From positions 1 to 60,194 of the forward strand of contig JABXHW010000020.1 of NCBI GenBank assembly GCA_013373425.1: a stretch of 60,194 nucleotides of DNA. The letters run 5' to 3'. Numbering within the stretch: position 1 is the first letter of the stretch; each line of letters starts with the position of its first letter. The position numbers and the translations under genes were made by a program. The stretch is from Flavobacteriia bacterium (GTDB lineage: Bacteria > Bacteroidota > Bacteroidia > Flavobacteriales > Schleiferiaceae). Below the pieces are notes generated by a model. That model saw only the letters and a program-made list of their open reading frames with translations, was not told the origin of the DNA and did no database searches. This document shows positions 23,067-49,651 of this stretch, one piece after another.

Positions 23067-23429
23067 ATGCGACTACTTACCACATTTGCCTTTATCATTA
23101 CTACACTCGCGATGAGTGCACAAGGGCAGTTGGATATTCGCATTCTCAACCTTGTGAACGATGACGAGTCCATTTCGATGGATTATGAAGAAGTGAGTTT
23201 CGAAACTTCAGCATTTGAAGATTTAAAATCCGGTTACGCTTCTCCCCCAACATTAGCGCTTCCGAAAAACCTCATCGTTTACATTTATCATCCACGCTTG
23301 GGCCTCATTCGGACGCATATTCGAGACCTTATGCGCCAGGGGCCCAGCATGTGGAGAGATAAGTACTTCCGCGTTCACCTTGACGGAACTCAAGTGGTCA
23401 AGCTCGAAGAAATCGTAATCCTCGATTAA
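23067..23429 (+). CDS. Small exported protein, unknown
   Basis: A 120-residue protein with a signal peptide (MRLLTTFAFIITTLAMSAQG). The mature part has no cysteine and no recognisable motif; short strands such as LIVYIYHP and FRVHLDG suggest a small beta domain, possibly a carboxypeptidase-regulatory-like fold. It lies 60 bases upstream of the four-cysteine gene cluster, on the same strand, and may be its first gene. Confidence 0.6.
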   Translation: MRLLTTFAFIITTLAMSAQGQLDIRILNLVNDDESISMDYEEVSFETSAFEDLKSGYASPPTLALPKNLIVYIYHPRLGLIRTHIRDLMRQGPSMWRDKYFRVHLDGTQVVKLEEIVILD

Positions 23430-23489
23430 TTTCAACCCATAGCTCACGCTACACGTCATTCTAGTATCTTGAATGAAATTTGTAGCGCA

Positions 23490-23936
23490 ATGAAGCTTCC
23501 CGTTCTCTTCATCATCATTTGTATTGGATTGACCTCATGTCGTCCGAATTTCGGCTTGCCCGTAGATGATCAAGTGGCTGTATCCGACATGCTTTGCGAG
23601 TGCGTTGAATCCATGGTTCCACATGAAAGTCCGTACGTCCTCGACGTATTTCAATTTGCGGTAGAACATCCCAATGAGGATGTAGATGAATTCATCGAAG
23701 AAAAAAGGGCTGAGCTTGATGGCGAAGCTCTCGAGACCTTCAACAAGGAATTGAGCTTCTTCTATGAAAACGACATCGATGAAATCTTTGCCGTTTGTGG
23801 AGAACCCATTCTCAATCAATATCCTGTCATCGATGAAATGGACGATGAAGTGTTGGTGAAAATGTTTCTCTACAACTTAGATGAAGGCTGCGAGCTGACA
23901 CACTTACTGATTGAAGTTTATCAAGCTCAAAATTGA
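23490..23936 (+). CDS. Four-cysteine secreted family, member 1 (lipoprotein)
   Basis: A 148-residue acidic protein. The lipoprotein signal MKLPVLFIIICIGLTSC fixes the start at 23490 rather than the ATG at 23469. The mature part has the pattern shared with the next three genes: CEC near the N-terminus (MLCECVES), a third Cys (AVCGE) and a fourth in a C-terminal helix (EGCELTHLLIEVY). Otherwise it is helical and rich in Glu and Asp. No known family was recognised. It is followed after six bases by member 2. Confidence 0.7.
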   Translation: MKLPVLFIIICIGLTSCRPNFGLPVDDQVAVSDMLCECVESMVPHESPYVLDVFQFAVEHPNEDVDEFIEEKRAELDGEALETFNKELSFFYENDIDEIFAVCGEPILNQYPVIDEMDDEVLVKMFLYNLDEGCELTHLLIEVYQAQN

Positions 23937-23942
23937 TTTGAC

Positions 23943-24398
23943 ATGATAAGAAGCAGACTACTCCATTGCATTTTGTTATTGTTGATTACAAGTACATCAG
24001 CTCTATCGCAGCCCGAAGGCTCCCACAAAAACGTTCTCTCCGCGGCTTGCGATTGCATTGGCGACGACCTTCACTCCTATATGTGGTATCTCGAAAACTA
24101 CTATCATACTATTGAAGAATTGGGCATTGAAGCTGCCAGTGAAGATAGAGTTACAGAGCTGATGTCTGCCGAAGACAAGGAGCGATACCTACAGCAGGAA
24201 GTTGATTTTTATAGTTACATCACAGATCAAGAGTTGGAGGATTGCATTCAAGCTCAGATAGTCGATGCAGACATGGATGCGTTCGATGAAATGGACTCTC
24301 CACGGGATTATATCAACATGGCTTCCTATCTTGAACTCCACGAGTGCCAAGCATTAGCACTTTACTTTAAAATTCTCGCCCATGAGGCTAATGAATAA
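23943..24398 (+). CDS. Four-cysteine secreted family, member 2
   Basis: A 151-residue exported protein with a signal peptide ending at about LSQPEG. It shows the family pattern: CDC (AACDCIGDD), Cys in ELEDCIQAQI and Cys in HECQALALYFKIL. Acidic and helical. Six bases follow member 1; its stop overlaps the preferred start of member 3 by eight bases, so the genes are translationally linked. Confidence 0.68.
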   Translation: MIRSRLLHCILLLLITSTSALSQPEGSHKNVLSAACDCIGDDLHSYMWYLENYYHTIEELGIEAASEDRVTELMSAEDKERYLQQEVDFYSYITDQELEDCIQAQIVDADMDAFDEMDSPRDYINMASYLELHECQALALYFKILAHEANE

Positions 24399-24885
24399 GA
24401 TTGCTCTACTCTTTTTACTTTCAAGTATCTCTCTCAATGCTCAAGAGGAATCTTTCGAGTATTACGTTACGCCATTCTGTGAATGCGGAAATGATGTTCT
24501 TGAGGAAAATAGTGAGGCCTTGGAAGCATTATATAATGCCTGGGTGGTTGATACTACATTGAGATACAACAAACCACTTCGAGGCAGCGCTTTGGACAGC
24601 ATTCTACATGCTGATTTGAGTGATTCAGAACTCGCGCAACTTCAAATTCAAGAAGAGGCATTGGCTAGAATGACAGAAGGAGACGAATTTGAAGCCTGCA
24701 TAATAGATAGGATGGAGTTAGATGATTTCGCACGTATTGAGGAAGTTCTACTTGAAATGGATTCCTTCAAATCGGTTCAAGAGTATCTTGATGAATTGGA
24801 CTGTGAAGCGACAGCACTCATGTTTAGAATAGTATTCGAACGCGTGCATTATGAAATGAATCGCCCTCCGAGGACAAATCGATAA
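24391..24885 (+). CDS. Four-cysteine secreted family, member 3
   Basis: A 164-residue exported protein; the signal peptide MNKIALLFLLSSISLNAQ favours the ATG at 24391 (another lies at 24382). Family pattern: CEC (PFCECGND), Cys in EFEACIIDRM, Cys in LDCEATALMFRIVFE. It is longer than its paralogues because of an insert after the CEC motif and a basic tail (RPPRTNR). Seven bases separate it from member 4. Confidence 0.68.
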   Translation: MNKIALLFLLSSISLNAQEESFEYYVTPFCECGNDVLEENSEALEALYNAWVVDTTLRYNKPLRGSALDSILHADLSDSELAQLQIQEEALARMTEGDEFEACIIDRMELDDFARIEEVLLEMDSFKSVQEYLDELDCEATALMFRIVFERVHYEMNRPPRTNR

Positions 24886-24892
24886 GTAAGCC

Positions 24893-25339
24893 ATGAAAAA
24901 ACTACTCTTAGCCACAACTCTAGCTCTGTTATCCACAGGCTTGTTCGCCCAAAACACAAAAGACGTTCACCGCGCTGCGGATGTACTTTGTGAATGTGTG
25001 GAATCCGAATTCAGCAAGTATTCCTTCTACTTGGAGTCCTTATATGAAGCCGTAAAATCAGGTAATTATGATTTCGACGATGAGAGTGTAATAGAAAACA
25101 TGAGCGAAGAAGACGCTCAGCGATTCATGGAGCAAAGCGAGGCTTTCGACGAATACATCAACAGCGACAAAACCGATGAATGCATCGAAAACAATCTGAC
25201 TGAATCCGAAATGGACGCACTCGACGAAATTATCGAAAGCGATGCTGGAGTTGAAAAGCTACTAAATTACCTAGAGGAAAAGGGCTGCGAATCGCTCGCC
25301 TTGTTCCTTAGAATCCTAAAGGAATCCGACGATCTGTAA
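24893..25339 (+). CDS. Four-cysteine secreted family, member 4
   Basis: A 148-residue exported protein with signal peptide MKKLLLATTLALLSTGLFAQ. It shows CEC (VLCECVESEF, nearly identical to member 1), Cys in KTDECIENNL and Cys in KGCESLALFLRILKE. Strongly acidic. It is last in the cluster and meets rimO head-on with only six bases between the stop codons. Confidence 0.7.
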   Translation: MKKLLLATTLALLSTGLFAQNTKDVHRAADVLCECVESEFSKYSFYLESLYEAVKSGNYDFDDESVIENMSEEDAQRFMEQSEAFDEYINSDKTDECIENNLTESEMDALDEIIESDAGVEKLLNYLEEKGCESLALFLRILKESDDL

Positions 25340-28526: not shown

Positions 28527-30773
28527 ATGAAGAAAGTCATTTTCGCGCTTTCCATACTCTTGGGATTTGCTGCTCATTCACAACAAAGGTTAATCAGTTC
28601 TGGCGAAGTTCCTGGACGACTGAACTTACAAAACGCCATTGGATATCTACAGACCTCTACGTCTCTCCGATCACATGGAGATGTCAATCTTGATGAGGAA
28701 CTCGAAAAGCTCTTCACCGGGGCTGAGTATCACATTCAAGAATTAATCACCGACGGCTACATTCTTTTCGGAGATAGCATTTCAACCTATTTGAACGAAG
28801 TGAAGAGCCGATTGCTCGAAAATCGTGAACAATTGAATAGGGAGATTGAAGTCTTTACCGTAAAGTGGGCGACCCCGAATGCATTTATGAGCTCTAGAGG
28901 TCGATTATTCGTCACCACCGGATTGATTTCTCAAGTCCAGAATGAAACGGAATTGGCATTCATTATCGGGCATGAAATTGCACACCATTTCCATGATGAC
29001 ATGGTATCGAAGGTGGAAGAATACCTCAACGAAGTAGAAAGACTCGAAGCCATTGGTAGCGACAAGGTGGCATCCAGAATGCTTCAATACTCCAGAGATA
29101 AAGAGTTGAGTGCGGATGAGTTCGGTATTGAACTGTTGATCGAATCGGGATATTATGACCCTATTCATGCGGAGAACATTTTTGCTGTATTGAGATACGC
29201 CTACCTCCCTTTTGAAGACAAGACCTTCGACTTCAACTGGTTATTATATGACACTACAGGAGTTCAAATTACCGGGCCGTTTCCAGAGGAAGTAAACCCC
29301 ATCAGCAAATCGATGGATTACGATGATTCGAAGGTGACACATCCCAATACTGCAGCGCGCGCCGAAGCCTTTCTAAACTATCTCGTAGAGCATTCTGATT
29401 ACGAAGAGAAAGAAGCCAATCCATTCGATCCACAACGATTCCACCGCTTACAATATTTATCGCGCCGCGAGACCATTGAGGCTGATTTTCAGAATCAAGC
29501 TTATCCCAGAGCCATCTACGAAGCGTACTTGATGTCGCTCGAATACCCAAACCAAACGGAAGAGCTCAAACTCTTTACAGGGTATGCGATGTATGTGATT
29601 GCATCTCTCAAAGCGCATGACGACTACAACGATTTTGTAGTATACGCCGACAGTATAGAGGGCAATTCACATCCAGTGTATCACTTCTTTGAAAATCTTT
29701 CGGCGAATGAAGCTGCAGCAATCGCACTTCGCTACAACTTCCTACTGAACGAAGATCAGGGCAATGATGCCTTTGTTTCTCAATTCAGCGATAAAACTTG
29801 GTACAACTTCATCTTGCTCACGGAATCCGATGTAGATGATTATAGAGGTGTAAGAGTTGAAGAGGCCGCTTTCGACACATTAACGGATAGCGCTTACGCC
29901 CTCCTATCTAAAATTGAAAAGATTCGCTACGACCGTGAGTTGAGCGCTTCGAAAGTAGATAAGGCCACCTGGGCAGCTGAGCTCTTCAACTCCATCGAAA
30001 ATCATCCAAGTTTCGTGAGCAATGTAGACCGCTATGTATCTTTGTTGGACTCGAACGCTTCAAACACGTCTTACTCCGAAGAGCTCCAGCGATTAGAAGA
30101 CCTCGCGGAAGAACGATTTATCAATAACGAACCTGAAGAATTCAACCCGATTGGAATAGATTCTATCTCCATCGTTCATCCATTTGCGTATGAATATGAA
30201 AAGAGGAAAATCTTATTCGGAAGATATTATCGTACGATGTGGGCACCTCGATACGAGGAATCTCTAGAAATGAGATCACAGATGCTCGAGCCTATTGATT
30301 TCTCGCTGAATGCTTTCCAGCCAAATGCCAATGTAGTGACCTATTCTGACGCGGGCTCGAATGACTATACCGTTGAAGAATACAACGACTATGTACTCCT
30401 CTCGCGCCTTGCTATCGAGACCTATGGGTTGAACGATTTACCAATCCTGCCTTACAGTCAGCGTTACCTGAATGAGTACTACCAAAATTCAGGTCAGCGA
30501 TACGTTCTCTACTCACTTTACCGTCACGAACTAGAATGGGACGGCAAGCCAGAATTAATCATGTTCTTTCCGCCGGTTGCAGTTATCGGTGGGGCCGTAT
30601 TGGCATTCTATGATCCGAATTCAACAGAGCTTTATGGAACGGTTTACGATATTCAGAACTCAGAAATCGTGATGGACGCCTATCTCAAATACCAATCCGG
30701 AGATGGCAAAACGACTCGGATAGCAGCCTTTCAAGAACTTATATCTCTCATGCTTCAGACTTCAGAACAATGA
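28527..30773 (+). CDS. Exported M48 metalloprotease, cassette copy 1
   Basis: A 748-residue protein with a signal peptide (MKKVIFALSILLGFAAHSQ). Zinc site: His149, Glu150, His153 in GHEIAHH and Glu193 in ELSADEFG, as in peptidase family M48. NAFMSSRGRLFVTTGLI just before it is the family's substrate-groove strand. The roughly 500 residues after the protease core do not match a domain I recognise; they share motifs with copy 2 (KIRYDRELSASK at about 470; a hydrophobic MFFPPVAVIGGAVLAF near 690). M48 proteins such as BepA work in outer-membrane protein quality control. The stop overlaps the next start by four bases (ATGA). Confidence 0.82.
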   Translation: MKKVIFALSILLGFAAHSQQRLISSGEVPGRLNLQNAIGYLQTSTSLRSHGDVNLDEELEKLFTGAEYHIQELITDGYILFGDSISTYLNEVKSRLLENREQLNREIEVFTVKWATPNAFMSSRGRLFVTTGLISQVQNETELAFIIGHEIAHHFHDDMVSKVEEYLNEVERLEAIGSDKVASRMLQYSRDKELSADEFGIELLIESGYYDPIHAENIFAVLRYAYLPFEDKTFDFNWLLYDTTGVQITGPFPEEVNPISKSMDYDDSKVTHPNTAARAEAFLNYLVEHSDYEEKEANPFDPQRFHRLQYLSRRETIEADFQNQAYPRAIYEAYLMSLEYPNQTEELKLFTGYAMYVIASLKAHDDYNDFVVYADSIEGNSHPVYHFFENLSANEAAAIALRYNFLLNEDQGNDAFVSQFSDKTWYNFILLTESDVDDYRGVRVEEAAFDTLTDSAYALLSKIEKIRYDRELSASKVDKATWAAELFNSIENHPSFVSNVDRYVSLLDSNASNTSYSEELQRLEDLAEERFINNEPEEFNPIGIDSISIVHPFAYEYEKRKILFGRYYRTMWAPRYEESLEMRSQMLEPIDFSLNAFQPNANVVTYSDAGSNDYTVEEYNDYVLLSRLAIETYGLNDLPILPYSQRYLNEYYQNSGQRYVLYSLYRHELEWDGKPELIMFFPPVAVIGGAVLAFYDPNSTELYGTVYDIQNSEIVMDAYLKYQSGDGKTTRIAAFQELISLMLQTSEQ

Positions 30774-31522
30774 AATTAAGAATCATTATAACTCTGCTTT
30801 TCCTTGGAGCAGTAGCACAAGCACAGGTTAGACCATCCTTCTTAGGACATCGTAGTGTCCTGTCGTTCAAAGGCAGTTTTATGCATGCTCGCCTTTCTCC
30901 AGAAGCCTATAGAAATGCCCGAAACACGGAGAGCCCAATTATTTTTTTCAATTCCGTCAGCTATGAAAGATTGAGATCTCGAAACGGCACATGGGTAATC
31001 TCAGCAGGCGCGAGTCCATTCAGTCTCAACTTGGGAGACCATAACATGGTTGTCGAACAAAATGATAGATCTTATTACTACTACGGAGACCAGTATATCT
31101 CAGCTATGAATTATCATTTGAGCTATGGGTTCCGCAACTACTATCAAAATGTTGCTCCCGTAGGCAAATACGTTGGAATTCACCTGCGGTACAACAGGCT
31201 AAGTACAACCCTCGATGAAACCGCTTTTCAGCGCAGATCGAATGGATCTTCCAACGTGTTGCTTTACGGCGTCGATACAGAACGAGAATTTACAAATAAT
31301 TCGTTCCAGTTGGAATTGGAAACAGGTCACTCTTGGTTGATAAACGCCAACGTTACAATCGACCTAGGCCTTACCCTCAAACTGCCTTTCTATCCGCTCT
31401 TCCGACCAGACCGTGATGTGCAGGACGATGGGCTGACGTATCGAGTGAACAGGTTTATGCCTTTCTCTCATTACGGAACGTCCAGCTTACTCATCGACCT
31501 TAGAATTGGTTGGATGCATTGA
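30770..31522 (+). CDS. Predicted outer-membrane beta-barrel, type A, copy 1
   Basis: A 250-residue protein with signal peptide MKLRIIITLLFLGAVAQAQ. The mature part is a run of amphipathic strands ending in an aromatic strand (LLIDLRIGWMH). It shares FLGHRSVL, SYERLRSRNGTWVISAG and YGFRNYYQNVAPVGKY with the type A barrel of the second cassette (YLGKKSIL, IYQRVVGRKWTLVGRAG, FGFRRYSRITAPIGHY). It is translationally coupled to the M48 gene, which implies a joint function. No known barrel family was recognised. Confidence 0.68.
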   Translation: MKLRIIITLLFLGAVAQAQVRPSFLGHRSVLSFKGSFMHARLSPEAYRNARNTESPIIFFNSVSYERLRSRNGTWVISAGASPFSLNLGDHNMVVEQNDRSYYYYGDQYISAMNYHLSYGFRNYYQNVAPVGKYVGIHLRYNRLSTTLDETAFQRRSNGSSNVLLYGVDTEREFTNNSFQLELETGHSWLINANVTIDLGLTLKLPFYPLFRPDRDVQDDGLTYRVNRFMPFSHYGTSSLLIDLRIGWMH

Positions 31523-31566
31523 TTTGGCACCTCATTTGCTTGGGAGTAAAAAACTACTCTACGCAA

Positions 31567-32577
31567 ATGAAAACCTACTTATTAACTGCAATGGCTCTAG
31601 CATCCATAATAGCTTGGAGCCAAGATGAAAGAAACATCATTTTCAATCACCCTGGAAATGGGGGAACGGTAATTATTCAAGACATCTATCACGACACCTT
31701 ACCGAGCATTTCCAGAGATTGGCGCGACCCACTGCTCGAAGGACGAATTGGAATAGGTGTTGCCGCTATCAATGGAGGTCAAACTGGGGGATTCCAACCC
31801 GAAGTAGAGCTCTACAGTCAGCTCAATGACCTCGTTGGCGTTGAGGTGAATTTCTCTGGAATTACAGACCAAGGCGACAGTCATTACAGTCCGGAAGAAT
31901 TGTCTCAAAACGACGCTGTGTTCAAATCTTGGAGCGGAACGGCATCAGCTACTTTCACTCTAGGCGATTTGAGTAAAACAAAGCTTCATCGCGTCTCTTG
32001 GCGATATTTCACACCCTTTAATGTTCAGTACGAAAAGCATAGTCAAGCTATGACGCGCGTTCGCTATCGCCATCAAGCTCGACTTGGATTTAACATTCAA
32101 GGCGGCAACCCTTTAGGATACACCTCATCCATTTCAAGTGATGCCACGCGAATTGTGGCTTGGAACGATTTAAGTGTGGGAAACTTGATGCTTGGGTATG
32201 CTTGGCGACTCGATAGATGGATGCAAGTTGAGGCAACGAACAAAACTTCGAGTAAGAATCTATCGCGATCGAGAACAGTGTTTGCCGATGTGATGATGAA
32301 CCTCCACCATGCGATTGACGGTGACATTTACGAAATGGGCAATGCAGGAGGCTATCAATACATCGGTGATCTCAATCCTAGTCAGCTTTCATTCTCCGCC
32401 TTGGGTGTTCGAATTGGCTACCGCGGAACCCGAATGTTCAACATTGAAAACTTCGGAATCTTTCATCGCTACGAATTGGGCTGGCGCCCTTCCTATAACG
32501 ATAGCTCCATTGGATTGGATCAAGTTGCTCCTGGCAGTAAATTTTACTTCATCGCAGCCGTAGGTATTCAATTCTAG
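31567..32577 (+). CDS. Predicted outer-membrane beta-barrel, type B, copy 1
   Basis: A 336-residue protein; MKTYLLTAMALASIIAWSQ is the signal peptide and sets the start at 31567. The body is strand-rich and ends FIAAVGIQF, a typical terminal barrel strand with a closing Phe. The C-terminal part (VRIGYRGTRMFNIENFG, YELGWRPSY) resembles that of the two type B barrels in the second cassette (IEIGYEGLSSFKY, ISIGSRPGYL), so the three are probably distant relatives. It follows the type A barrel by 44 bases. Confidence 0.62.
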   Translation: MKTYLLTAMALASIIAWSQDERNIIFNHPGNGGTVIIQDIYHDTLPSISRDWRDPLLEGRIGIGVAAINGGQTGGFQPEVELYSQLNDLVGVEVNFSGITDQGDSHYSPEELSQNDAVFKSWSGTASATFTLGDLSKTKLHRVSWRYFTPFNVQYEKHSQAMTRVRYRHQARLGFNIQGGNPLGYTSSISSDATRIVAWNDLSVGNLMLGYAWRLDRWMQVEATNKTSSKNLSRSRTVFADVMMNLHHAIDGDIYEMGNAGGYQYIGDLNPSQLSFSALGVRIGYRGTRMFNIENFGIFHRYELGWRPSYNDSSIGLDQVAPGSKFYFIAAVGIQF

Positions 32578-32650
32578 AACGAGTTTGTCCTATAATTGAA
32601 TAACCGAGATTTGTCGGATTTAAGGGGGCGGGAGTTTGAGTTTCAATTGA

Positions 32651-32658
32651 TACATTTG
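32651..32658 (+). promoter_or_regulatory. -7 box TACATTTG upstream of the second M48 gene
   Basis: A perfect TAnnTTTG lies 143 bases before the ATG at 32802. No TTG occurs at the usual distance upstream. If used, it gives the second cassette its own promoter and a leader of about 135 nt. Confidence 0.35.
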
Positions 32659-32801
32659 TGAACAACTGAAACTCTTTACTCGACCTCTGATCGCTCTCGT
32701 CTAATTATCTTTCACAAGTACAGACACAATCCGAGCTTCTTGGCCTACAGGGCCATTGTCATTGTCTTCTTTTGAGTTTTAGCAGATAAAAAATCAGGAG
32801 A

Positions 32802-35069
32802 ATGAAAATTAGCACGGACAAACTGCTGTTGATTAGCTCTGCCATTCTAGGCTTGAGTTTATCGGGAATCAGTCAAGAGCACCTACGTTCCCAAGGTGAA
32901 ATGGTAGAAGAGTTCACCGAGCGTGAACGCCATGACTTTTTGAATCGCGAGATTCCCAACCGACTTGTTGACAACGAGGGCGCCAAAAAAGCCGAATACC
33001 TCAATCAAAGTGAGTTTTTCTTATCGGAGCTCTTGATGAGCGGTGAAGTTATCTACGGTGATTCCATTTCGATCTACCTCAATGATGTCATGGCGCGATT
33101 AACCGCAAATAGTGATGACATCAATGAAAATATTCGAGCGTATACCTTAAGATCGCCCGTTCCAAATGCGTTCATGACGTCAAAGGGGATTTTAATGGTG
33201 ACGACTGGGCTTATCGCGCAAGTTCAAAACGAAACTGAACTCGCATTGGTTATTGCGCATGAGATCGGACATGATCACGAAGGTGACATCGAAAGATCGA
33301 TCGAGAGAACCATCGATATCGAGGTGAATAATCGCATATATGAAGGGGCTGAAGATGGCCTTTCACTCTACGAATACAGCCAAGAGCGAGAATTGAATGC
33401 GGATGACTTTGCGCTAAAGTTGATGTTGGAAAGTGAAGGCTATAATCCAATCAATGCTTCTGCCATCTTTGATGTATTGCTATTCTCTTATTTACCCTTC
33501 GACGATGTCGTGTTCCCTATGGCCTACATCGCACCATCACGCATTGAACTCGACCTCTCAAAAATTAAAGACATCGAGAATGATATTACGGCGGAGAGTG
33601 ATTTCGACGATGAAGAAAGTAGCCACCCGAATTACGAAAGAAGAACCGAGCGATTTTTTGACTACCTATTGGATGCCGATTTCGAGGAAGATGACTACGA
33701 GCATCTTTCCGCTAACCCGCTTGGTGAAAATCGATTCAAGCGCATCCAGCGCCTGGCTAGGCTGGACGCCATTCAACGTGATTTGCACGAACGTAATTAT
33801 GTAAGAGCATTGTATAACACGTACGTTCTTTCCATTACTGATACAGCGCTCTCTGATGATGCCGAAAAATTTGTGGGATATGCGTTGCACGCCATTGCAT
33901 CATACAAGGTTGAATATGCAAACTATAACAACACTCCGCGTAAACCGGGTAATGAGCACGAGAATATCTTTGAGGACCAGAACACCGAGGGCAAGATTGC
34001 ACTCCTTGACAAATTCATGGAGACACTCACTGCTGAACAGGCATTGGGTCTAGCGATTCGCTATAACTACGAGCTTCACATGAAGCATCCTGAAGACCCT
34101 TTCATACTAGAGAACTTGAACGGGAACATCAACCAGTTGATTCGCTTAATGGAAGGTTCGCTTGATACCTACACGAATTCACCACTCGGTGACACTACTT
34201 CAATAGATACATTGTCTGAGGTGGAGTATGAGAATTTGTCTAAGATTGACAAAATTCGCTATGACCGTCAGATGTCAGGTAGCAAGGCTCAAGACTGGTC
34301 GAATTCTTTGCTTTATGAATATGCTGAAGACGAAATACTTATCGCTTTATACGAAGCTCAAGAATTGCTTTATTCGGAGGATACCGAAAATCGCAGTGGA
34401 CTTAATGAAGCTGAATTCCGCGATCTCCTCAGTAACCTGAGCGAAGAAAACGATGAATACGAGGATGTCAACTTGGGTTTACGCGAAGTACATTACCTAT
34501 CGCCTATTCTGTATTCATTCCACATCGAAAGCCGTTATAGTAGCGACTTTAAGCTCGAGCGTACAATGGAATTCCGCGAACGCTTCGAGCGCGCTTCGGA
34601 TGTTGCATTACGTGCAGCCGGCCTCCGTGCTGAAACGTACTACACAAGCGACTTTGACGATGACGAAGAATCGACTCAAAAGTTTAATGATTATGTCGTT
34701 CTACGCGAATGGTTCCAAGAGCGACTCAGTCATGTAAACACGCCTGTTAACAACAGTTTACAAGCGCGGGCTATCGAAATCGCAGATCGTACGGGTATCG
34801 ATCACTTGGTCGTGCCAACAGCTATCAATTCATCATTTAAAGTCAACCGCTTCACTTCTGCCGTTTTGATGGTTGTTTTCCCACCTTCTGTCTTTGGATT
34901 GTTGGACGACTTGTACAAGGCCAATGACAATTCAATCTTGGTCTACTTTGTGTTCGATCTTAGATCGGGCAATGCAATGCTCATCAATGTTCGGGAATAC
35001 GAAGCATTCATGCACCAGGATTACTTGAATCAAATGGTGTACGACATGGTGTTTCAAATTGGCAACTAA
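32802..35069 (+). CDS. Exported M48 metalloprotease, cassette copy 2
   Basis: A 755-residue paralogue of the protein at 28527. A signal peptide (about 25 residues) is followed by the M48 core: NAFMTSKGILMVTTGLI, His153, Glu154, His157 in AHEIGHDH, and Glu197 in ELNADDFAL. As in copy 1, a long C-terminal region follows with KIRYDRQMSGSK and a hydrophobic VVFPPSVFGLL near the end. Both copies keep all zinc ligands, so both should be active. The C-terminal part is more acidic than in copy 1. The type A barrel gene starts 21 bases later. Confidence 0.82.
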   Translation: MKISTDKLLLISSAILGLSLSGISQEHLRSQGEMVEEFTERERHDFLNREIPNRLVDNEGAKKAEYLNQSEFFLSELLMSGEVIYGDSISIYLNDVMARLTANSDDINENIRAYTLRSPVPNAFMTSKGILMVTTGLIAQVQNETELALVIAHEIGHDHEGDIERSIERTIDIEVNNRIYEGAEDGLSLYEYSQERELNADDFALKLMLESEGYNPINASAIFDVLLFSYLPFDDVVFPMAYIAPSRIELDLSKIKDIENDITAESDFDDEESSHPNYERRTERFFDYLLDADFEEDDYEHLSANPLGENRFKRIQRLARLDAIQRDLHERNYVRALYNTYVLSITDTALSDDAEKFVGYALHAIASYKVEYANYNNTPRKPGNEHENIFEDQNTEGKIALLDKFMETLTAEQALGLAIRYNYELHMKHPEDPFILENLNGNINQLIRLMEGSLDTYTNSPLGDTTSIDTLSEVEYENLSKIDKIRYDRQMSGSKAQDWSNSLLYEYAEDEILIALYEAQELLYSEDTENRSGLNEAEFRDLLSNLSEENDEYEDVNLGLREVHYLSPILYSFHIESRYSSDFKLERTMEFRERFERASDVALRAAGLRAETYYTSDFDDDEESTQKFNDYVVLREWFQERLSHVNTPVNNSLQARAIEIADRTGIDHLVVPTAINSSFKVNRFTSAVLMVVFPPSVFGLLDDLYKANDNSILVYFVFDLRSGNAMLINVREYEAFMHQDYLNQMVYDMVFQIGN

Positions 35070-35090
35070 TCAGAATAAGATAAAGTCGAT

Positions 35091-35918
35091 ATGACTAGAT
35101 TACAGACAATATATAGTGTAGCCGTATTTACCTTGCTCTCTGCCGCCGGGTATGCACAGAATTCCCACGGTTACTTGGGAAAGAAATCAATCCTTCAGTA
35201 CGACCTTGGATTTAACACTAACTACTTCCTTGGTCGTTCAGCGGACATGAGCGTAGAGGAGAACTCTCCAGTGATGCGCTTTGAGCACAACATCATATAT
35301 CAGCGAGTTGTGGGCAGAAAATGGACCCTCGTTGGGCGTGCAGGGTATTCCAGAAATTACCTCAAATCGGTGAGGGATTTTAATTATCCCGTGACAGATA
35401 ACACCGGAGTAACCCGCGAATACACGTTTAATAAAAGCTTAGGGAACGAAAATCAAGCGTTCAACACCATTACAGCAGAGTTCGGCTTTAGAAGATATTC
35501 GAGAATTACCGCTCCTATTGGGCATTACTACGGTTTTACAGCTGGGTATGCGATGATGAGTATGGAGTACGCCTATAACAATTATGCGAGGTACTCGTCT
35601 GGAAACTACTATGGATTGTATCTACCACCGGCTTCTGTCAGCTCAGGAGTTCCGTTCTTAGGATGGGAAATGGGTGCTACACGAGTAATAGATCAGCAAT
35701 GGGTAATCGAATACGGTGGGTCTATGCGCTTCACCTTTCCAACCAAGTCTGACAACTACTATCGCGGTTCCTTCTCGCTCAATGAGCCATACGCCAATTA
35801 CGGAGAAAGAGAGCCCGAAGTGGGAAACACCATAACTGGTGTCGAAGACGCCCTTCAACTCGGTTTTGCAGGCAATACAACCTTGATGTTTCACGTAAGC
35901 TTCGGTTGGCTACACTAA
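35091..35918 (+). CDS. Predicted outer-membrane beta-barrel, type A, copy 2
   Basis: A 275-residue protein with a signal peptide ending near GYAQN. It is homologous by eye to the 250-residue barrel of the first cassette, sharing the start (YLGKKSIL), a middle strand (YQRVVGRKWTLVGRAGYS), FGFRRYSRITAPIGHYYGF, and the end LMFHVSFGWLH. It is rich in Tyr and aromatic strand ends. Cassette position directly after an M48 gene is conserved between both copies. Confidence 0.68.
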   Translation: MTRLQTIYSVAVFTLLSAAGYAQNSHGYLGKKSILQYDLGFNTNYFLGRSADMSVEENSPVMRFEHNIIYQRVVGRKWTLVGRAGYSRNYLKSVRDFNYPVTDNTGVTREYTFNKSLGNENQAFNTITAEFGFRRYSRITAPIGHYYGFTAGYAMMSMEYAYNNYARYSSGNYYGLYLPPASVSSGVPFLGWEMGATRVIDQQWVIEYGGSMRFTFPTKSDNYYRGSFSLNEPYANYGEREPEVGNTITGVEDALQLGFAGNTTLMFHVSFGWLH

Positions 35919-35949
35919 CTCATAACCTTCTCTTCTACTTTCAAATTAC

Positions 35950-36966
35950 ATGAAGAATTTCAAACTCTCAATGGCAGCCGTGGCCCTAAGCTTTTTAGGG
36001 CATCACGCCGCTGCTCAGGACACCATTGCTGTTCTCGACATCGACCAAGAGAACAGCGACACCGACATGTTGAACGATAGAGGTTCATTGTACATGTTCA
36101 ACAATCAATATTACAATCAAGGATACTTGGGATTCTATGGCGTAAAAGCCACCTATCCGAGTGGAGGAAGCATTCCCAACATTTCGTTGAGCTACAAGGG
36201 CCTCTGGAATGAGGATTACATGTTGGAAGCCGAAGTTCTTCCTTTGGACTTCAACACACCAGAACTCGGACTGGGGCTTGACATTCCTGCCACCATTTTA
36301 GGTGATATTCAAGTGATGGGATCTGCATTCTTCTTCCATTCGACGAAACGAGGTCGCGTCAACTTGAGTCAGCGTGCATTTTCCGGAATGAACGTCAATA
36401 TCAAGACGCCAAGTATTGTCCAAACGAACTACGGCTTGCGTGCGGGTTTTCAACTCGATAACAACTATATGAGACTTCCGAGCTCTGACCCTAGAGCGAG
36501 TGAAATATCAAGCGTTACCTACCTCAGAGGAGAGCGAAATATCAACTTTGTACTCGGCGCTCAATACACGTCCACACATGCTGCGGCTGGAAAATTTGAG
36601 AACGAATCCTTTACCATGGGCGTGTACACAAGATCGCGTATCTATGGTCACGTTCGCGTAAGCATGGCCTCTAGCTTGGTAGTTGAAGATCGCGATGCAT
36701 TGGCAGACGACTACGACTTGAGCTTGAATGGCGACACAGAAGGCTATAGAAGATTTGGAATAGAAATCGGATACGAAGGCCTATCCTCATTCAAGTACAA
36801 GTACAAAAATGGACGATTTACTCCGCAGGGATTCTTCTATGCGTACAACATCTCCATTGGATCACGTCCTGGCTACCTGCCTTCAAATGACGAGTTCCAA
36901 GCTGCACAACTTCGCTACAATCAATTCGCTTTGATGGCTGGGCTTACCATCGGCTATATCAACTGA
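35950..36966 (+). CDS. Predicted outer-membrane beta-barrel, type B, copy 2a
   Basis: A 338-residue protein with signal peptide ending HHAAAQD. It is clearly paralogous to the next gene over its whole length (shared YNQGYLGFYG, PNISLSYKGLWNE, MLEAEVLPLDF, DPRASEISS, RGERNINFVLGAQYT, GDTEGYRRFGIE, IGSRPGYLP). The many alternating strands and the final strand FALMAGLTIGYIN indicate a barrel. No known family was recognised. Confidence 0.66.
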   Translation: MKNFKLSMAAVALSFLGHHAAAQDTIAVLDIDQENSDTDMLNDRGSLYMFNNQYYNQGYLGFYGVKATYPSGGSIPNISLSYKGLWNEDYMLEAEVLPLDFNTPELGLGLDIPATILGDIQVMGSAFFFHSTKRGRVNLSQRAFSGMNVNIKTPSIVQTNYGLRAGFQLDNNYMRLPSSDPRASEISSVTYLRGERNINFVLGAQYTSTHAAAGKFENESFTMGVYTRSRIYGHVRVSMASSLVVEDRDALADDYDLSLNGDTEGYRRFGIEIGYEGLSSFKYKYKNGRFTPQGFFYAYNISIGSRPGYLPSNDEFQAAQLRYNQFALMAGLTIGYIN

Positions 36967-36993
36967 TGCACAACTCAGAGCACGTACTATCAA

Positions 36994-38010
36994 ATGCAGA
37001 ATATTAAAATTACTATTGCGCTCGTGATGATGGCACTCCTCGGTGGGACGGCATCTGCACAAGATACTATTGATATTATCACACACTTTGAAGGTGATGG
37101 TAACGATGCGGATTTCGTAAACGATCAAGGGATCTTTTACGTACACAGCAACCAGTTTTACAACGAAGGTTACATCGGGTTTTATTCGGCAAATCTTCTA
37201 TTTGGAACCGTGGGGATTCCCAACATTTCTCTTCAATATAAAGGGCTATGGAATGAATCGTTCATGTTGGAAGCTGAAGTTCTACCATTTGATTTCGACG
37301 CAATTGGCCTTAGTTCAAGTATGAGCTTTCCGACCTCCATTTTAAGTGATTTCCAGTTAATCGGAACAGCATTCCCCATTCATTTCACACGTGCGGGACA
37401 GTCAGGATTGACGTACAGTCAAACTGGGCTGAAGAGAATCGTCCTTCAGATTCCCAGTATAATTCAAACCAACATAGGATTTAGTGGTGGCCTGCAGATG
37501 GATCACAATCAGATAAGATTGTCTGGTACAGATCCGCGGGCAAGTGAAATTTCGAATGCCACCCGTTTGGAAGGAGAGCGAAACATCAACCTGGTTCTCG
37601 GTGCACAATATACATGGACGAATGCAGCCGCAGGCAGGTTTGCTCGTGAGTCCCGCATGCTAGGTACTTACAGCCGTGAGCGTATTTACCTGCGGTCGAG
37701 GTATAGCGTAGGTTCTAGCTTGATTGTGGCAGATAGAGATGCTCTTCCAGAAGAATATGACTTATCATTGAGCAGCGACACCGAAGGATTCAGAAGATTC
37801 GGCATCGAGTTGGGTTATGGCTCTATCAGCGCGTTGAACTATTCCTATCAAAACGGTCGCTTTGTGCCAAAATCTTGGTTCCTATCTTGGGATGTATCAA
37901 TAGGGTCTCGTCCAGGCTATTTGCCGGACACCGATGGATTTAATTTTTCCAATCTAAGCTTCAATCAGTTCATGTTCAGGCTTGAGTTAGGGGTCGGATT
38001 TATCAATTAG
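36994..38010 (+). CDS. Predicted outer-membrane beta-barrel, type B, copy 2b
   Basis: A 338-residue protein, the same length as its upstream neighbour and paralogous to it along its full length, for example YNEGYIGFYS, PNISLQYKGLWNE, DPRASEISN and EGERNINLVLGAQYT. The signal peptide ends GTASAQD. The tandem duplication occurs only in the second cassette. The gene is closed by a bidirectional terminator shared with the ribosomal-protein genes on the other strand. Confidence 0.66.
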   Translation: MQNIKITIALVMMALLGGTASAQDTIDIITHFEGDGNDADFVNDQGIFYVHSNQFYNEGYIGFYSANLLFGTVGIPNISLQYKGLWNESFMLEAEVLPFDFDAIGLSSSMSFPTSILSDFQLIGTAFPIHFTRAGQSGLTYSQTGLKRIVLQIPSIIQTNIGFSGGLQMDHNQIRLSGTDPRASEISNATRLEGERNINLVLGAQYTWTNAAAGRFARESRMLGTYSRERIYLRSRYSVGSSLIVADRDALPEEYDLSLSSDTEGFRRFGIELGYGSISALNYSYQNGRFVPKSWFLSWDVSIGSRPGYLPDTDGFNFSNLSFNQFMFRLELGVGFIN

Positions 38011-38038: not shown

Positions 38039-38073
38039 AAAAAAGCCCCCTGATTTCTCAGAGGGCTTTTTTT
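38039..38073. terminator. Bidirectional terminator
   Basis: A6 followed by GCCC-C-CTGA (38039-38053), loop TTTC, then TCAG-A-GGGC and a T7 run (38058-38073), with one C/A mismatch in the stem. It lies between convergent genes and has U-tracts for both directions. Confidence 0.9.
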
Positions 38074-48856: not shown

Positions 48857-49651
48857 TTAAAAGTTGAGCGTTGCTCCCAATCGAATTTGATGCTCCACCT
48901 GTCGGCTACTCGCACCAACTGAGCTGTTGAGATAATCATAGTTGTAGTTCAAGCTCAATTCTAAGTAGCTTGTCAACTTATACCCCATCTTCAATGATGC
49001 TTCAGGAACTAGATAGTTGTCTGGTGCAACCCATTCTCCATTCTCAAAAAGAGGAGAAACTTCTCCATTCTCAATTGTAATACTCGGGTCGTTTGAACGG
49101 TATACGTACGCGATTACTGGCATACTCAAACCTGCCGATGCACGCCATCTGTTCTTTTGAAATTCAACTTGAACGGCTGCATTGAGATGATGCGCACTCA
49201 ATGAGCTGAACTGTCCATCGACCTCATTACGCATTTCCCAATTCGCAAATCGCGTACTGAATGCATAGTTACTCCCCACATGCAGACTGAATCCCGAATT
49301 CGTGCTCATCACTGGTGCCAAAATGCCAAGACGTGCTTCAAATGCGAAGTAAGGTGCATTTAGATTCTCGTTTTCACGATTAAATTCAGAAGCCTCATTC
49401 ATGAGGTAAACCTGAAAACGAAAGTCGTTGCGAAGATGATACTCATACCCCAATTTCAAGCTTAGCGAGGTGTAGTTGATCTCGGAACCTGACAGCTCCT
49501 CATCCTCCACAACTCCAGAGCCTGTTCCTGCCTCAATCTTAATATGGTTATATCCATTCTTAAGTTCAGGCTGACTTCCTGTTTCTGATTGTGCAAATGA
49601 CGCCGTCGAGCAAAGAATCAATGCGGTAGCGGTCAAAGTTTTGGTTGTCAT
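48857..49651 (-). CDS. Predicted outer-membrane beta-barrel protein
   Basis: A 264-residue protein with signal peptide MTTKTLTATALILCSTASFAQ. The body is strand-rich (YTSLSLKLGYEYHLRNDFRFQVYL, LELSLNYNYDYLNSS) and ends HQIRLGATLNF, a closing barrel strand with terminal Phe. The family was not identified. It is divergent from the glycine-zipper/MDR/hydrolase operon, with a 180-base shared promoter region. Confidence 0.68.
   Translation of the reverse strand: MTTKTLTATALILCSTASFAQSETGSQPELKNGYNHIKIEAGTGSGVVEDEELSGSEINYTSLSLKLGYEYHLRNDFRFQVYLMNEASEFNRENENLNAPYFAFEARLGILAPVMSTNSGFSLHVGSNYAFSTRFANWEMRNEVDGQFSSLSAHHLNAAVQVEFQKNRWRASAGLSMPVIAYVYRSNDPSITIENGEVSPLFENGEWVAPDNYLVPEASLKMGYKLTSYLELSLNYNYDYLNSSVGASSRQVEHQIRLGATLNF

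Follow-up and report, generated by a model that had tools for sequence, protein, structure and literature searches.

The stretch of DNA analysed here, referred to below as the window, covers 60,194 nucleotides (nt) from a Flavobacteriia bacterium of the Schleiferiaceae (contig JABXHW010000020.1, GenBank assembly GCA_013373425.1). At positions 28527-38010 it carries two exported metalloproteases of peptidase family M48, each followed by the gene of a small predicted outer-membrane barrel, here called A. Many little-studied Bacteroidota were found to carry such a protease and its own small barrel back to back, which suggests an undescribed membrane-docked protease. That the conserved unit consists of the M48 protein (~750 amino acids, aa) and barrel A (~260 aa) is well supported by gene order. 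The further reading, in which the pair is a two-gene outer-membrane module with a BepA-like protease docked on a dedicated barrel for quality control or processing, is one that we hold to be about evenly balanced between right and wrong.

The first protease, M48_1 (28527..30773, plus strand, 748 aa), has a signal-peptide-like start, an M48 domain and a long C-terminal part. The gene of its partner A1 (30770..31522, plus strand, 250 aa) starts at 30770, before M48_1 ends at 30773, and the two genes are coupled by a 4-nt ATGA overlap, as the initial annotation of this DNA had stated. The second protease, M48_2 (32802..35069, plus strand, 755 aa), is followed 21 nt downstream by A2 (35091..35918, plus strand, 275 aa). 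The two proteases are homologous (BLASTP, 32% identity, E 7e-87), as are the two A barrels (22% identity, E 1.5e-8), and hence the M48-A pair has been duplicated. Both proteases match the Pfam family Peptidase_M48 (PF01435) above its cut-off of 20.3 (M48_1, E 6.1e-20, 72.3 bits; M48_2, E 5.2e-16, 59.5 bits). The initial annotation was also right that both retain their zinc ligands, namely HEIAH at 149 with E193 in M48_1, and HEIGH at 153 with E197 in M48_2. The HEXXH motif, the third Glu ligand and the profile score place both in family M48. The HPNxxxR motif is likewise kept in the two proteins (at 272 in M48_1), and HEXXH is retained in 93 of 93 full-length members. The alignment of M48_1 to the family profile, of which it is a seed, spans 1-743 of 744.

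For barrel A, the assignment is one of fold. The AlphaFold2 model of A2 (predicted local distance difference test, pLDDT, 79.0) is an eight-stranded barrel of the OmpA/OprF type. By profile, neither A1 nor A2 belongs to the OmpA family, as Pfam returned no family for either at E up to 1, and NCBIfam gave no match for A or for the B proteins discussed below. A1 matches the A profile, of which it is a seed, at E 1.3e-58. In a 22-row alignment, conservation reaches 60% or more at 23 positions in A2, with clusters at 26-31 and 141-146; in the assigned eight-strand topology these clusters, at the N-terminus and at 141-146, would lie on the periplasmic side. A separate outer-membrane barrel is encoded elsewhere in the window (48857-49651, minus strand; Pfam OMP_b-brl, 29.3 bits). 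It is reached by an iterated A profile at E 1.7e-11, and the M48 search of its own genome gave no adjoining M48 gene.

The recurrence of the pair was established by two approaches. In the first, 99 relative genomes (the window's own included) were searched with M48_1, and 37 of them gave at least one match at E up to 0.001; some of these matches are short M48 proteins. In the neighbourhoods fetched, in sets of 20 and 17, an M48 class of ~730-830 aa was directly followed by an A-type gene. In the second approach, the M48 alignment was used to scan species genomes and gave 405 relatives; the best 80, the nearest part of the family, were kept and correspond to 77 loci. As these loci were selected on protease similarity alone, they test the pairing. 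Their record names include Cryomorphaceae, Schleiferiaceae, Owenweeksia, Crocinitomix, Brumimicrobium, Saprospiraceae, Cytophagales and Bacteroidales, among others. Among 61 usable M48 genes, A was directly downstream of 50, upstream of five (L087, L115, L120, L131, L141) and fused to two; one more adjoined only the A of the first unit, and three had none. An A of its own is therefore present for 57 of the 61. Within these loci, the background among non-adjacent open reading frames (ORFs; 181-399 aa) is 5 of 247 for the seed A profile and 12 of 247 for the iterated one. Judged from gene neighbourhoods, M48 and A are paired beyond chance; M48, A and B are not. In three of the loci with A upstream, A and M48 are separated by a lipoprotein-like gene of 291-297 aa whose product ends in ALDW or TLDW (L115, 4448-5323; L141, 4995-5888; L131, 5000-5884).

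These counts started from 82 M48 ORFs (at least 400 aa, more than 300 bits) in the 77 loci, of which 16 copies of seed loci and four genes lacking downstream sequence were dropped. The initial sort of the remaining 62 gave 48 with A downstream (45 by the seed profile and three by the iterated profile only), two fused, six upstream and six without A. By a six-frame search, L117 and L132 were reassigned to the downstream class and L131 to the upstream class. The second copy in L122 was set aside, as its contig ends, and the second copy in L138 was counted apart, as its upstream A belongs to the first unit. Over both sets, 73 of 106 M48 ORFs are directly followed by A, with 14 exact 4-nt overlaps and 12 other overlaps. 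In the opposite direction, all 23 A hits below 1e-20 in the 99 relatives, from 18 genomes, adjoin an M48 gene of this class; since the 22 sequences from which the profile was built make up 22 of the 23 hits, what this search tells is chiefly that no strong hit occurs anywhere else. The tandem arrangement is not peculiar to the window: two or three M48 genes (at least 300 aa, more than 300 bits) stand together in 9 of 103 loci, two of which (L046 and L093) are the same place.

Two even draws across the phylum, of 296 and 395 genomes with the window's own among them, gave a full-length match in that one genome only; one of the searches also gave four shorter M48 matches, and the other (E up to 1e-15) gave nothing further. 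As one to three candidates were scored per listed genome, this reflects patchiness or low sensitivity rather than absence. When species genomes were first scanned, with M48_1 alone as the query, no relative came up. Among viral contigs, the M48 alignment produced 32 pattern matches, none of them a relative, and carriage by phages is unsupported.

Several observations weigh against the reading of the pair as a dedicated module. More distant M48 relatives of 666-772 aa lack A and are followed by a ~530-aa protein or by other genes. Within the close class, three of the 61 M48 genes have no adjacent A (L105, and the second tandem copies in L124 and L137). Weak matches to the A profile also occur without an adjacent M48 gene, once in G060 (E 8.6e-9) and twice in Crocinitomix catalasitica (E 2.6e-7 and 4e-4), a species whose strain ATCC 23190 has two M48-A pairs. 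The N-terminal motif of A, expressed as a simple pattern, is present in only 57 of the 97 A-type proteins collected with the iterated profile. The correlation between M48 and A (Mantel, 0.64 over 72 pairs; null maximum 0.18 in 999 permutations) is confounded by shared ancestry. Finally, the helical and C-terminal regions of the protease are divergent (mean column identity 0.43 and 0.41, against 0.59 for the protease domain), and no docking surface is pinned down for this reason. The initial annotation had named, as what would undo its proposal, homologues of the proteases that usually stand without the barrels. For A this does not hold in the close class; it does hold for the B proteins and for the distant relatives.

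The ~530-aa exported proteins that adjoin the shorter M48 relatives form a family of their own (L044, L048, L052, L053, L055, L057, L059, L063, L068), in tandem in L044 and L048, and Pfam gave no family for the one member examined (L044). Related ~530-aa proteins are encoded near seven M48-A loci (L091, L095, L100, L110, L113, L118, L155), and this is possibly a second partner family. Another family, of ~930 aa, lies within four genes of M48 in six loci (L088, L102, L127, L129, L141, L142). Two M48 relatives, in L064 (680 aa) and L066 (666 aa), stand beside proteins of 1855 and 777 aa, which were guessed to be TamB and TamA; this was wrong, because in L064 Pfam identifies domains of alpha-2-macroglobulin and of penicillin-binding proteins.

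Gene fusions are strong evidence that the protease and the barrel act together. Two records of metagenome-assembled genomes contain a single open frame that holds a whole M48 protein and then barrel A: L134 (RGIG10147, Bacteroidales, yak rumen) and L154 (RUG13549, Bacteroidetes), of 912 and 951 aa, respectively. The tails of these fusions match the iterated profile at E 3e-16 (L134) and 8.6e-20 (L154) in a search of all ORFs of the loci, and the seed profile at E 1.5e-6 and 1.4e-8 in a search of the whole genomes. The protease match ends 9 and 13 residues before the barrel match begins (iterated profile), and the junctions contain neither a stop nor a second signal peptide. The fusions are 65% identical to each other, so they may derive from one fusion event. 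Both junctions contain EPVGxMGHR, which presumably corresponds to the PGYLGK motif with which mature A begins. As the N-terminus of A follows the protease by about 10 residues, the protease is most likely placed at the periplasmic face of the barrel.

The fusions bear on two other explanations. One is that A is a substrate or folding client, which the protease matures or degrades. A is nearly always found beside the protease, and BepA, which degrades stalled barrels on the β-barrel assembly machinery (BAM), is reported to act on the barrel proteins LptD and BamA (PMC13067283). However, two genomes have A fused to the protease with no second signal peptide, and there the seed profile gave no further A hit at E up to 0.001. 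We consider it rather unlikely, on balance, that A is a client. The other explanation, which the initial annotation had raised, is that A exports the protease or displays it outside the cell. Both proteins tend to have signal-peptide-like N-termini (78 of 93 proteases and 85 of 97 A-type proteins, by a crude pattern). However, an eight-stranded barrel of the OmpA type has no export pore, and in the fusions the protease is attached at the N-terminus of A, its periplasmic end. Neither M48_1 nor M48_2 has a type IX C-terminal sorting domain among its Pfam matches at E up to 1, and a crude lipobox pattern is found in only one of 93 full-length proteases. Display on the cell surface is therefore disfavoured and seems highly improbable.

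The structural models indicate how a module of protease and barrel could be built. The AlphaFold2 model of M48_2 (pLDDT 78.8) contains a BepA-like protease domain, a helical middle region (~309-547) and a C-terminal alpha/beta domain (555-755), with a predicted fold of the PelC/CsgG/TolB N-domain type. In BepA, the residues of the active-site plug are H246, P247 and R252 (PMC7950410). H275, P276 and R281 of M48_2 match these by motif and are invariant in the 22-row alignment. In the proposed mechanism, barrel A would sit in the outer membrane as an eight-stranded OmpA-type barrel, and the M48 protein would be periplasmic, with its helical middle and PelC/TolB-N-like domain added to a BepA-like protease. 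The C-terminal domain would dock on the periplasmic side of A, near the N-terminal GYLGK motif and an APxGxY turn. The docked protease, with its H-P plug motif, would probably cleave stalled or misassembled outer-membrane or surface proteins; alternatively, it may process specific proteins of these kinds. That the substrates are outer-membrane or surface proteins is suggested by the analogy with BepA. The sequences themselves show the pairing, the fusion and the retained active site, and the folds are predictions; for the unfused proteins, both the docking and the periplasmic side on which it would occur are inferred.

A changes much faster than the genes around it. Compared with a congener (G001), the window retains 93% identity in FtsY, 90% in RimO and 69% in CinA, against at most 37% in M48, at most 30% in A and 39% in B1. 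Between the loci L047 and L049, FtsY is 99.4%, M48 83% and A 53% identical; by 50-residue blocks, the M48 protein shows 90-100% identity over the first 300 residues, 70-78% over 301-700 and 90% in the last block. The ratio of nonsynonymous to synonymous substitution rates (dN/dS) of A is ~0.12 in this comparison, where dS is also raised relative to FtsY, and dS is saturated in the other A pair. These values lend no support to positive selection on A, whose change is put down to rapid divergence or to the replacement of alleles. In the M48 tree as in the A tree, the four units of this genus group together (clade support 1.0 and 0.94, respectively) and branch in the same order. A cross test of M48 against A in tandem copies was uninformative, as both copies have the same nearest neighbour.

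Such divergence could mean that the fast-changing extracellular loops of A sense ligands, phages or toxins and switch on the docked protease, as a relay for envelope stress or defence. It is consistent with this that position 171 is the only one of the 23 conserved A2 positions in a loop assigned as extracellular (from the strand list). However, fast-evolving loops are common in outer-membrane barrels, and the low dN/dS of A, with its high dS, does not point to positive selection. Moreover, the recurrent non-housekeeping neighbours are the two uncharacterised families of ~530 aa (13 loci) and ~930 aa (6 loci), with no recognisable regulator among them. A role in sensing is therefore regarded as unlikely. 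We are equally doubtful that the pair forms a new envelope device in which the barrel loops act as a receptor and a plug-gated zinc protease is kept, and switched, on the periplasmic side; if this were true, an event at the cell surface would be turned into proteolysis below the outer membrane.

The remaining genes of the locus are B1 (31567..32577), B2 (35950..36966) and B3 (36994..38010), all on the plus strand. With them, the ORF list contains seven plus-strand ORFs at 28527-38010, in the order given by the initial annotation. B1 is a genus-specific secreted protein, possibly a barrel, and a putative member of the unit at most; its probable start is the ATG at 31567 rather than the TTG at 31510. 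B2, a neighbour of the second pair, is a secreted protein that is also possibly a barrel, and B3 is its paralogue (51% identity). The initial annotation had described a duplicated unit of one protease and two kinds of barrels. The duplication holds for M48 and A and finds no support for B, as B1 has no match to B2 or B3 (BLASTP E 0.20 and 0.48; hhalign probability 0.1, with three sequences a side). No signal of kinship of B1 to B2/B3 or to A was found outside the signal-peptide region. Searches of B1 and B2 sequences against the PDB returned nothing useful. As a sole check of B1-B3 as barrels, a crude amphipathicity score gave z 3.1, 3.1 and 1.8, against 2.2 for A1 and control values of 0.0 (M48_1), 0.8 (M48_2), 0.0 (FtsY) and -1.9 (RimO); the score is weak, since A2, a barrel in its model, reaches only 1.1.

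The initial annotation treats M48, A and B as a single functional cassette, possibly with the B barrels as clients of the protease. The spacings between A1 and B1 (44 nt), A2 and B2 (31 nt) and B2 and B3 (27 nt) are short enough to permit cotranscription. However, matches to B1 are confined to three of 60 genomes, each from this genus, and those to B2 to two of 60, namely its own genome (B2 and B3) and a distant gene elsewhere in G001. In another genome of the genus (G002), B1 occupies the same site on the ftsY side, with the cinA side beyond it, and no M48_1 match was found in that genome at E up to 0.001; in G001, B1 stands upstream of two M48-A units. M48-A-B as a conserved cassette is thus rejected as a unit, and a joint function of all three seems very unlikely. 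The B genes are, by their distribution, lineage-specific neighbours, perhaps cotranscribed with the units and possibly local additions or clients. The gene behind each fusion (L134, 8894-9721, 275 aa; L154, 8768-9583, 271 aa) recalls the B genes of the window, and the one in L154 matches OMP_b-brl.

After B3, a probable two-way terminator without assigned strand (38045..38073), consisting of a GC-rich stem followed by T7, was read by eye; this stem is absent from the list of the terminator scan. The locus is flanked by what we take to be minus-strand ftsY and rimO on one side and a minus-strand block ending in cinA on the other, recognised from their sequences, with presumably a DUF4295/rpmG/rpmB block, read by eye, between ftsY/rimO and cinA. 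Beside rimO, at 23067-25339, is a row of small proteins of ~120-170 aa whose sequences differ strongly from species to species within the genus, with 22-49% identity against 90-91% for RimO.

Most of what is known about quality control at the outer membrane comes from E. coli, and a recurring, sometimes fused pair offers a direct handle on how Bacteroidota police or remodel their outer membrane; the fusion is also a ready single-chain construct for structural work. The initial annotation had proposed an undescribed system. This stands for the recurring pair of protease and barrel, since a full-text literature search gave no description of an M48-barrel pair in the titles or abstract starts among the matches listed, and it does not stand for the B barrels as partners. 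For Bacteroidota, the BAM complex of the same membrane and phylum has been described (PMC12611786, PMC12578637), which a protease and barrel could conceivably serve; the term 'M48' does not occur in the main texts of these two 2025 papers.

Among the known systems, BepA (YfgC) of E. coli was the right comparison to draw: it is an exported M48 protease with helices after the protease domain and an H-P-..-R active-site plug motif, and it gave the best Foldseek rows for the M48_2 model, which aligns to it over 63-327 (VIA Z 16.6; root-mean-square deviation, rmsd, 4.1; 197 residues; 19% identity). As regards the C-terminal tetratricopeptide repeats of BepA, to which the helical middle is a candidate counterpart, the Foldseek alignments cover 480-499 columns at rmsd ~21-22 and the VIA rows end at or before model residue 335. 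M48_1 and M48_2 fall short of the BepA equivalog model, with scores of 48.0 and 47.4 bits against the cut-off of 570 of NCBIfam NF052400, and they differ from BepA in being ~260 residues longer, in the extra PelC/TolB-N-like domain and in the adjacent or fused barrel. The Geobacter M48 peptidase 3c37 shares the M48 domain (profile E 3.8e-17, Z 16.0), and the alignment is confined to it. LoiP and YcaL of E. coli are M48 proteases as well, but both are lipoproteins, and the match to the LoiP model is 13-23 bits against 365. We know of no barrel partner for 3c37, LoiP or YcaL. The A2 model shares its eight-stranded fold with the transmembrane domains of OmpA and OprF and with NspA, Ail and OmpW (OprF, Z 16.9, rmsd 2.2, 132 residues; OmpA, Z 15.3). 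A differs from these barrels in its low identity (4-12%), in lacking the OmpA C-terminal domain and in that its strong profile hits adjoin M48 genes. For the C-terminal region of M48_2 (555-755), the modelled fold resembles the outer-membrane-associated alpha/beta domains of PelC, GNA1162, CsgG, TraT and the TolB N-domain (PelC, Z 10.0, rmsd 3.1, 119 residues, 12% identity; GNA1162 among the Foldseek rows), although identities are only ~7-14%, no related Pfam match was obtained and the domain is here joined to a protease. Taken together, the M48-A pair includes a member of peptidase family M48 that, by analogy, may work like BepA.

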